Origin: Spirochaetota bacterium
Lineage (GTDB): Bacteria > Spirochaetota > UBA4802 > UB4802
Assembly (NCBI GenBank): GCA_026414805.1
Contig: JAOAIH010000005.1
Span: 1-64,000 of the forward strand
Direction: 5' to 3'
Length of the DNA stretch: 64,000 nt
The first letter of the stretch is position 1. The number at the start of each line of letters is the position of its first letter. Of the stretch, positions 61,399-64,000 are shown piece by piece. The notes below the pieces were generated by a model that did not search any database, was not told where the DNA came from, and saw only the letters and a list, made by a program, of their open reading frames with translations. Position numbers and translations under genes: made by a program.

Positions 61399-61599
61399 AT
61401 GATAGGAAATTTAATAAGAATTATTTTTTTCTTTTTTATTATATATTTTTTTATTCATGTAATTAAATATATAATAAAAATTATTACCACTCAATCACAA
61501 AATATTAGTGGAAAAAACAATGATTATACGTATCATGAACAACAAAGAAAAACTAATAAAGTAATAGAATTAGACAAAGATGATTACAAAGTTGAATAA
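61399..61599 (+). CDS. Small membrane protein of unknown function
   Basis: A 66-residue product with one strongly hydrophobic N-terminal helix (about 4-30) and a hydrophilic Lys/Asp/Gln-rich tail. I recognise no family. AAGG stands 6 bases before the ATG, and its 3-prime end overlaps the next lipoprotein gene by 20 bases, so the two are likely one unit. A TTGACA at 61314 lies upstream. Confidence 0.55.
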   Translation: MIGNLIRIIFFFFIIYFFIHVIKYIIKIITTQSQNISGKNNDYTYHEQQRKTNKVIELDKDDYKVE

Positions 61600-61978
61600 A
61601 AGTATATTTCTTTTATTTATTTTTTTGCTTATACTTTATTGTTCAAAAGCAACAGGGACATTTGCATTTAAAAATAGTAATGATGACCGATACATTATCA
61701 AAGATGAATTGTGTGAATTTAATCACGATGAGAAAATAGATTGGTCTTTTTGCTTTGCGAAATTATCAAAGCAAAAAAAAATTGGAGTAGTTATATTAAA
61801 AAAAGAGAAGGTATGGATAGATATTTACTCTTTTTATGACAATGTTTCAAAAAATAAACCATGTATTTATGGAAATATTCAAAATTATGAAGAGGGCAGA
61901 TACAAAATAGTAATAGTAGATAGCGGGAATACAATAGCTGAAAAAGAATTTGTAATTTATAATGAAAATAATGAATAG
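61580..61978 (+). CDS. Putative small lipoprotein
   Basis: A 132-residue product with a lysine start, a hydrophobic core and a lipobox LILYC (Cys at about 21), so it is probably a lipoprotein. The mature part is beta-rich, contains two further Cys-bearing segments and ends in an acidic tail; no family is recognised. A TTG at 61592 is an alternative start that would give a shorter signal. It is convergent with the ispH fusion gene, 53 bases away. Confidence 0.6.
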   Translation: MITKLNKSIFLLFIFLLILYCSKATGTFAFKNSNDDRYIIKDELCEFNHDEKIDWSFCFAKLSKQKKIGVVILKKEKVWIDIYSFYDNVSKNKPCIYGNIQNYEEGRYKIVIVDSGNTIAEKEFVIYNENNE

Positions 61979-62031: not shown

Positions 62032-63777
62032 TTAAGTATTTAACAATATTATCAAACACAAGATAATAAATAATAAAAAATTACAATCAGTTAATATTTC
62101 ATATTTTAAAGATATAAAATATTTAAGATTAATAATTTTATAGAAAAGAAAATTGTAAAAAACTATGTTAATAATAAATACTATATACATTATATTATAG
62201 AGTAATGCCAGATAAAATATCGATACCATTGATATTATTGATAATATATAAAATATAAATTTAGCTTTCTTAAGACCTAATATAATTGGTATTGTGATAT
62301 TGCCTATAATAAGATCTCCACTAAATCCAATAAAATCTAATAATAGATTTCTTGAAATAATAAGAAAAGATAGAAATAATATCAACGAGATGATGAAATA
62401 CGTATTTAATTGATCTTTATTATTTTGATAGGCATTGAGTAGTGGTATTATTAAAGTGATTGTTATCCATCCAATGTTAGCAGGAATTGATTTAATAGAA
62501 TATATTGTTTGAATAAAAGATGGTAAATATTTCTTTATAAAAAATTGCATATAGCTTGTAGAATATACCATTCCTGTAAATAATATAATGTAATACAAAA
62601 TTATACTAACATAGTCATTAATTAAAAAAGTAATAATCATTGAAAATAAAATTAAAGCAACAGTTGCAGTTAAAATAACAAAATGGTTATTTTTATGTAG
62701 CTTATATTTAAATGGGTTAGTTATTTTAAGAGTGTCTTTAAGGAAGTAGTTGTTTATTGCATACATTAAAAATATAAAAGATGCTGAAAGCAATGGGAAT
62801 TTGTATGATGACCATATTCCTAATATTTCTTCCAACAACAGGGACATAAAAAAACTAGCAATTGAGGAAAGCAAATTTAATCTTGTTGCTATTTCCAAAA
62901 AACGCATTAGCACATGCTTTATTGGGCTTTCGTATTTGTTTGATATTGAATACAATTTTTCCAACACATTATTAATAATCCATCCTGGAGTTGATGCTCC
63001 AGCTGTAACAAGAACATATTTTGAATTCATAAAATCTTCATCATGCAAATCATCTTCAGTTTCGATATGGAATGTTTTTATGTTGCTATTTTTACCTATT
63101 TTTGCAAGCCTTTGGGTATTTGCTGAATTTTTACCACCAACAACAACCAATGTATCTATGCCTTCTTTTATTGCATTAATTACATCACTTTGTCTATTAT
63201 GGGTGGAATCACAAATAGTATTAAATATTAAAAGATTATCATATTTGCTTTTTAAAATTTGAGTAATTTTTTCAAATAAGTTTTCATCAAATGTTGTTTG
63301 TGCTACTACAATATATTTAATTGCTTTTGGAATTTTATCTATATCATCGGTACTGGATATTACAACTACACCTGCATCCGTATAACTCTTAACACTTTCA
63401 ACTTCAGCATGGTGGTCATCGCCAATAATAATTGCAAAATAACCTTCTTTGGAATATTTTTTAACAATTCCCTGAACACGAGCAACTCTTGGACAGGTTA
63501 AATTTATAATTCTAGATGCCTTTTCCTTTAAAATCCTCAAGGATTCTTTAGGCATGCCATGAGTACGAATAGCAACTATTTTATTATTTATATTGCCAAA
63601 AGAATCAATGGTGATAAGACCACGTGATTGCAAAATAGAAACTGTTTGGGGATTGTGAATAAGTGGCCCTAAAATATAAATAGATTCTTCGCTGTGATTT
63701 ATTTCATTCACTATATCAAGGACAGCCTTGCGCACTCCCATGCAAAAACCAGTGTTTTCAGCAACTTTTATTTTCAT
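62032..63777 (-). CDS. ispH: IspH reductase fused to a UbiA-like prenyltransferase domain
   Basis: Residues 1-280 are a complete IspH (LytB), the last MEP-pathway enzyme, making IPP and DMAPP. The [4Fe-4S] ligands Cys12, Cys95 and Cys189 are present, with His41, His123 and Glu125, Thr162 and the NSAN loop (about 217-220). Residues about 285-581 form a polytopic membrane region with about nine helices. Two segments match the Asp-rich motifs of UbiA: NNYFLKDTL (N343, D348) and LLLDFIGFSGDLIIGN (D482, D489), the latter followed by ITIPIILG. UbiA enzymes transfer prenyl chains to aromatic or lipid acceptors. The first motif is weaker than usual. The fusion is a single uninterrupted frame. Confidence 0.82.
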   Translation of the reverse strand: MKIKVAENTGFCMGVRKAVLDIVNEINHSEESIYILGPLIHNPQTVSILQSRGLITIDSFGNINNKIVAIRTHGMPKESLRILKEKASRIINLTCPRVARVQGIVKKYSKEGYFAIIIGDDHHAEVESVKSYTDAGVVVISSTDDIDKIPKAIKYIVVAQTTFDENLFEKITQILKSKYDNLLIFNTICDSTHNRQSDVINAIKEGIDTLVVVGGKNSANTQRLAKIGKNSNIKTFHIETEDDLHDEDFMNSKYVLVTAGASTPGWIINNVLEKLYSISNKYESPIKHVLMRFLEIATRLNLLSSIASFFMSLLLEEILGIWSSYKFPLLSASFIFLMYAINNYFLKDTLKITNPFKYKLHKNNHFVILTATVALILFSMIITFLINDYVSIILYYIILFTGMVYSTSYMQFFIKKYLPSFIQTIYSIKSIPANIGWITITLIIPLLNAYQNNKDQLNTYFIISLILFLSFLIISRNLLLDFIGFSGDLIIGNITIPIILGLKKAKFIFYILSIISMVSIFYLALLYNIMYIVFIINIVFYNFLFYKIINLKYFISLKYEILTDCNFLLFIILCLIILLNT

Positions 63778-63788
63778 ACTATCGCTTT

Positions 63789-64000
63789 TTATTGGGTAAC
63801 AATATTAGGATTACCTATAGTACCCATTATTTTTATTATGATGTTTTTTGTACCAGATTTTGTCATAGATTCTAATAATACTTTATAATCTTCTAGAATT
63901 TTTGATTGCGAGTCAATCTGTATTGTTATATTCAGTGAAGAATTTTGAAAGTAATTAGACAATGTTATTGTTCCATATGCATTGCCTCTGATGTCTGAGC
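63789..64000 (-). CDS. C-terminal end of an AsmA/GspN-like protein (partial)
   Basis: An open minus-strand frame enters from the right edge and stops at 63789-63791, 11 bases before ispH. About 69 residues are visible, rich in beta-strand patterns (GNAYGTITLSNY, then LNITIQI) and ending KIMGTIGNPNIVTQ. A final 'GT..NP' is typical of AsmA-like and type II secretion GspN proteins, which span the periplasm, so that is my best guess. The rest of the gene is outside the window. Confidence 0.5.
   Translation of the reverse strand, partial: SDIRGNAYGTITLSNYFQNSSLNITIQIDSQSKILEDYKVLLESMTKSGTKNIIIKIMGTIGNPNIVTQ

Follow-up and report, generated by a model that had tools for sequence, protein, structure and literature searches.

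A constrained, aspartate-depleted UbiA-fold membrane domain fused to IspH in Spirochaetota

IspH, the [4Fe-4S] HMBPP reductase that yields IPP and DMAPP, catalyses the final step of the MEP pathway. In a 64,000-nucleotide stretch of a Spirochaetota genome (positions 1 to 64,000 of contig JAOAIH010000005.1; hereafter the window), the reading frame for this enzyme continues into a membrane domain, which raises the question of what such a domain contributes to the protein. The original prediction, made from the letters of the DNA, was of a complete IspH running unbroken into a polytopic domain. This description holds: the ispH-UbiA-like fusion gene occupies exactly positions 62032-63777 on the (-) strand as one uninterrupted ORF of 581 codons plus stop. 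Its IspH (LytB) domain spans residues 1-283 (62929-63777, (-) strand), as identified with PF02401, TIGR00216 and Foldseek, and residues 285-581 (62035-62925, (-) strand) form a UbiA-fold membrane domain with nine predicted transmembrane helices, as assigned with AlphaFold2, Foldseek and hhalign. A frame error or pseudogene is ruled out by the absence of stops from the ORF and by a dN/dS of about 0.17 for the membrane domain.

The N-terminal half matches PF02401 over residues 3-275 (E=1.3e-82; 277.5 bits versus a gathering score of 24.5) and TIGR00216 with 257 bits (cut-off 187.85); its best NCBIfam match is PRK00087, at a score below the PRK00087 cut-off. Foldseek comparison of the full fusion model with IspH crystal structures gave TMt values of up to 0.86. 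The protein carries C12, the first IspH Fe-S ligand (63742-63744), the further Fe-S ligands C95 (63493-63495) and C189 (63211-63213), all on the (-) strand, as well as E125, T161/T162, H41, H123, S218, N220 and S262. In the alignment these catalytic and Fe-S residues are invariant wherever the column is filled, with the sole exception of C95 in one fragmentary row. The prediction of an IspH with all of its cluster ligands is therefore confirmed, as the three Fe-S cysteines and the catalytic residues are conserved. Furthermore, the fusion is the sole PF02401 match in the host genome, which also encodes dxs (in the window), ispG and a UPP-synthase-type (uppS-type) gene. Because its residues are fully conserved and no other IspH exists in the genome, we infer that this half functions as an ordinary [4Fe-4S] HMBPP reductase, and its sequence predicts that it is active. 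IspH likewise forms the N-terminus of a longer protein in the IspH-RPS1 fusions of Firmicutes; the C-terminal half of those proteins consists of S1 repeats, whereas the window protein has a membrane domain instead.

An AlphaFold2 model of residues 285-581, computed from 34 aligned sequences, is all-helical (pLDDT 94.4, pTM 0.91), and we assigned the nine helices from this model. When it was compared with the PDB using Foldseek, the best 14 matches were all UbiA-family proteins (TM about 0.5-0.58, E from 6e-4), with 7bpu, 6m31, 4od4/4od5 and 4tq3-6 as the top structures. DGGGP synthase (7BPU, 6M31) is the best fold match, and the overall fold is common to AfUbiA/ApUbiA and MenA-type UbiA prenyltransferases (4TQ3-6, 4OD4/5). 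Alignment of the domain with intact UbiAs of the phylum using hhalign gave a probability of 96 and an E value of 4e-9. The Pfam UbiA family (PF01040) scores 10.9 bits on the domain, under its gathering cut-off of 34.2, and Pfam and PDB sequence searches with the membrane domain alone returned matches too weak to decide; the best of them, itself weak, is chlorophyll synthase (9SAU) in motif 2 (D......GD). Both DGGGP synthase and chlorophyll synthase are described as enzymes; the window protein, for its part, lacks the canonical motif 1. The models indicate that the C-terminal domain has a UbiA-type fold, so the polytopic UbiA-fold C-terminus that had been proposed is upheld by domain and structure checks of residues 285-581.

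Fusions of IspH to UbiA are a published class. Rao, O'Dowd, Li, Wang and Oldfield (2015; PMC4746011) named IspH-UbiA a Rosetta-stone protein on describing 47 sequences, every one reportedly from a sulfate reducer and with two DXXXD repeats. These authors proposed that the fusion localises to the membrane with a local supply of IPP/DMAPP, and their expression of active full-length IspH-UbiA failed; spirochaetes, Brachyspira included, go unmentioned in the report (PMC4746011). Their fusions share with the window protein an N-terminal IspH and a C-terminal UbiA-fold domain of about nine helices in one ORF, a separate UbiA/MenA in the genome and the same proposed role. In contrast to the two DXXXD repeats given in the published description, the aspartates are largely lost from the Spirochaetota protein. 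The fusion type had thus already been described in 2015, and there is no published biochemistry on any active full-length member. Local supply of IPP/DMAPP at the membrane is likewise an idea already present in that work. The window gene represents a real and conserved variant of an already described fusion, and what is new here is its spirochaete range, the loss of metal-binding aspartates, the constraint on the domain and its setting in a type II secretion system (T2SS) operon.

The same IspH plus membrane-domain layout occurs in about 33 full-length relatives and, additionally, in Brachyspira-type genomes, which rules out an assembly chimera or artefact. Most searched genomes of the host order gave full-length or near full-length fused matches, and other families of the phylum supplied two more. 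When 393 genomes of the phylum were searched with a profile, the domain was located in 72, mostly in open frames of about 575-600 codons, the length that the fusion would predict; nearly all of the matches inspected are IspH plus domain, and a few weak ones are stand-alone UbiA-like proteins. Since most genomes of the order have full-length homologues, as do several further families of the phylum, the fusion is neither a chance event nor a chimera. Both outcomes that had been named beforehand as counting against the prediction, absence of the fusion from close relatives and absence of a UbiA fold, failed to occur. The only PF01040 signal in Brachyspira-type genomes is weak (E mostly about 1e-4) and presumably represents the fused domain itself. 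IspH is missing from three genomes of the order (G002, G020, G040), which also lack gspL but have ispG; for this reason we read the absences as assembly gaps rather than losses. Scans with the full protein yielded nothing beyond one distant Firmicutes IspH in a genome-contig collection, and no match in viral contigs.

Phylogenetic analysis groups all fused domains in a single clade (support 91/79) beside stand-alone UbiAs, at least two of which retain more of the aspartates. The position of this clade is not secure because the neighbouring stand-alone UbiAs lie on long branches. One stand-alone UbiA-like gene (L093, G088 C247, 193-1965) has an intact second motif (DIRDxxGD) and a first motif of the form N-R-x-x-D-x-x-x-D; two further partial UbiA-like frames follow it, possibly as a broken duplicate.

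Residues of the membrane domain were mapped with three alignments (MAFFT of the fused set, MAFFT with intact UbiAs, and hhalign), all of which agree. In AfUbiA, N68, D72, D198 and D202 coordinate Mg2+, GPP binding is abolished by the mutations N68A and D72A, and in MenA, mutants at the equivalents of these four ligands lose function (PMC4106721). The window protein departs from both catalytic motifs. For motif 1, NDxxDxxxD (N68, D72, D76), the protein keeps N342 at the N68 position (62752-62754) and has L346 (62740-62742) and L350 (62728-62730) at the positions of D72 and D76. For motif 2, DxxxD (D198, D202), it has G484 at the D198 position (62326-62328) and keeps D488 at that of D202 (62314-62316; all codons on the (-) strand). 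N342, Y405, D488 and, by position, R299 are remnants of the binding site. Relative to AfUbiA/MenA-type UbiAs, then, the N68 and D202 positions and a Y139-type Tyr are retained, and the D72, D76 and D198 positions are lost from a domain that scores below the Pfam UbiA cut-off.

This pattern extends through the relatives. All 33 rows of the host order have D488, and 32 of them have N342. At position 346, 10 rows carry D, 13 carry E and the other 10 carry L, M, T, R or Q; with N also seen, this position is unconstrained. Only L, I or M occurs at position 350 in the order, and the D76 equivalent is lost in all fused relatives examined, where the position is hydrophobic. Position 484 is D in a single row of the order (lost in the other 32), and the D198 equivalent is gone from nearly all fused relatives examined. 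Of the residues that the original prediction had cited as Asp motifs, the first pair, N343...D348, is misplaced in all three alignments: the metal-binding Asn is N342, and D348 is neither a motif position nor conserved. The second pair, D482...D489, is really D481/D488, the numbering being off by one, and only D488 is a canonical ligand position. With canonical NDxxDxxxD and DxxxD absent, the adjacent prenyl-transfer step finds no support in the residues cited for it. Because the equivalents of D72, D76 and D198 are lost, the membrane half is most likely not a canonical Mg-dependent prenyltransferase.

The main rival to this reading is an active prenyltransferase whose metal site has been remodelled to consist of N342, D/E346 where present, and D481 and D488 as substitutes for the usual pair. 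It would use IPP/DMAPP-derived diphosphates made alongside, as Rao et al. proposed for their Rosetta-stone protein and as the original prediction also had it. Several features speak for this view, including the UbiA fold with its pocket-side conservation, the joining of two isoprenoid-related domains and the two DXXXD repeats reported for Desulfobacterales fusions (Rao et al., PMC4746011). D481 and D488 are conserved across the host order, and in a weak alignment chlorophyll synthase shows this outer Asp pair too, Ser standing between them at the AfUbiA D198 position; loss of D198 alone is therefore no proof of inactivity. Similarly, D or E at the D72 position in 23 of the 33 rows means that a Mg site may survive in some members. 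However, the window protein itself has L346, L350 and G484, the D72 position varies even within the order, the D76 position is always hydrophobic in the fusions, and D481 is replaced by E in most Brachyspira-type fusions. The gene also adjoins T2SS genes, with no acceptor pathway beside it. On balance we consider an active prenyltransferase possible but unlikely.

If catalysis of the standard type has been lost, the domain could be a plain membrane anchor under weak constraint, retained solely to tether IspH. It does evolve faster than IspH, with dN/dS between species of the genus of 0.14-0.19 compared with 0.06-0.07 for IspH (some dS values are high), and also faster than real UbiA, as judged from its lower identity within the genus (63-66% versus 86-88% for the genuine UbiA). 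The domain is moreover absent from the IspH encoded at the same locus in one family of the order (f3). The dN/dS values of the membrane domain nevertheless lie well below 1 (about 0.17), and the domain is under purifying selection despite its Asp losses. A total of 25 of the 28 membrane-domain positions conserved at >=90% in the host order fall on the cytosolic half (Fisher p=5e-6, with helix limits taken from the AlphaFold model). The loops of the window protein contain 12 Lys/Arg on the inner side and 1 on the outer side, which under the positive-inside rule agrees with an orientation in which the conserved side and IspH would both face the cytosol. Conserved residues on that side are N342, N343, K357, Y405, R476, D481, D488, Y559 and E560, and they make the domain look like more than an anchor; a plain anchor would not require R476, D488 and E560 to be invariant. 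We regard this explanation as improbable.

The genomic setting suggests a further possibility. The fusion gene lies 11 bases downstream of a gspN-like gene (63789-64000 in the window, continuing to contig position 64628, (-) strand), at the end of a T2SS operon running from gspC to gspN (L047 5790-17845). The gsp names derive from sequence and gene order, with Pfam support for the gspL product and weak support for the gspM product. The order gspM-gspN-ispH is conserved through the host order and is kept even in f3, where an IspH without the membrane domain occupies the same operon position and is followed by ribH- and nusB-like genes. The fusion might thus work for the T2SS encoded in the same operon, for instance by linking the supply of isoprenoids to assembly of the envelope. 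This proposal appears highly improbable, because IspH is a single-copy core enzyme of the MEP pathway and because no match to T2SS proteins was found in the inspected flanks of fused loci outside the host order. By phylogeny, the f3 IspH groups as the sister of the host order's fused clade, so the membrane domain was likely lost in f3, an unfused ancestor being the alternative. The f3 enzyme lacks the domain, so IspH activity does not depend on it in near relatives. The IspH of one f3 genome (L045, G012) is unlike those of its relatives, with 33% identity to the window protein, and its sequence suggests a gene replacement. A 132-aa ORF (window 61580-61978, (+) strand), which has a hydrophobic stretch at its N-terminus and matches no Pfam family, is convergent to ispH-UbiA, an arrangement conserved in many genomes of the order.

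The host genome has a separate intact UbiA (FNRxxDxxxD) within a futalosine menaquinone cluster. The fused domain is consequently unlikely to be the menaquinone prenyltransferase of this genome, as the intact protein covers that step. Three species of one genus of the order (L115, L127 and L128, at G036 C69, G040 C33 and G042 C64) have this stand-alone, futalosine-type UbiA fused behind an ABC-transporter permease domain, with PF00528 and PF01040 in one frame of 548-558 codons (Pfam run on L128).

Our preferred reading, which we hold with about even confidence, is that an active IspH sits on a membrane module of UbiA fold, Asp-depleted yet constrained, which is no standard Mg-dependent prenyltransferase and instead acts as an anchor/docking or ligand-binding part. 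The cell's only IspH would be carried on this module, which retains the fold, a pocket on the cytosolic side and some of the binding site, and has lost most metal-binding aspartates and probably canonical Mg-dependent activity with them. It would hold IspH at the cytosolic face of the membrane, its conserved pocket may dock IspH or bind a prenyl-diphosphate or lipid, and IPP/DMAPP could be handed over beside their membrane-bound users. A more specific and rather doubtful version is that of a pseudo-prenyltransferase, in which the metal box is dismantled and the pocket reused as a metal-independent module that binds a prenyl-diphosphate or lipid and, at the membrane, would dock IspH, feed it or regulate it. 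No publication on UbiA pseudoenzymes was found among the papers searched.

IspH-UbiA has been a published class whose membrane half was never assigned a function, and the Asp-depleted yet constrained spirochaete members argue against the view that every such fusion is a ready-made prenyltransferase. They also provide a natural set of variants for probing the role of the domain, differing at the D72 position (D, E, L or N) and, in f3, lacking the domain altogether. If the pseudo-prenyltransferase model is true, this domain would serve the MEP pathway of Spirochaetota as a device for feedback or hand-over.
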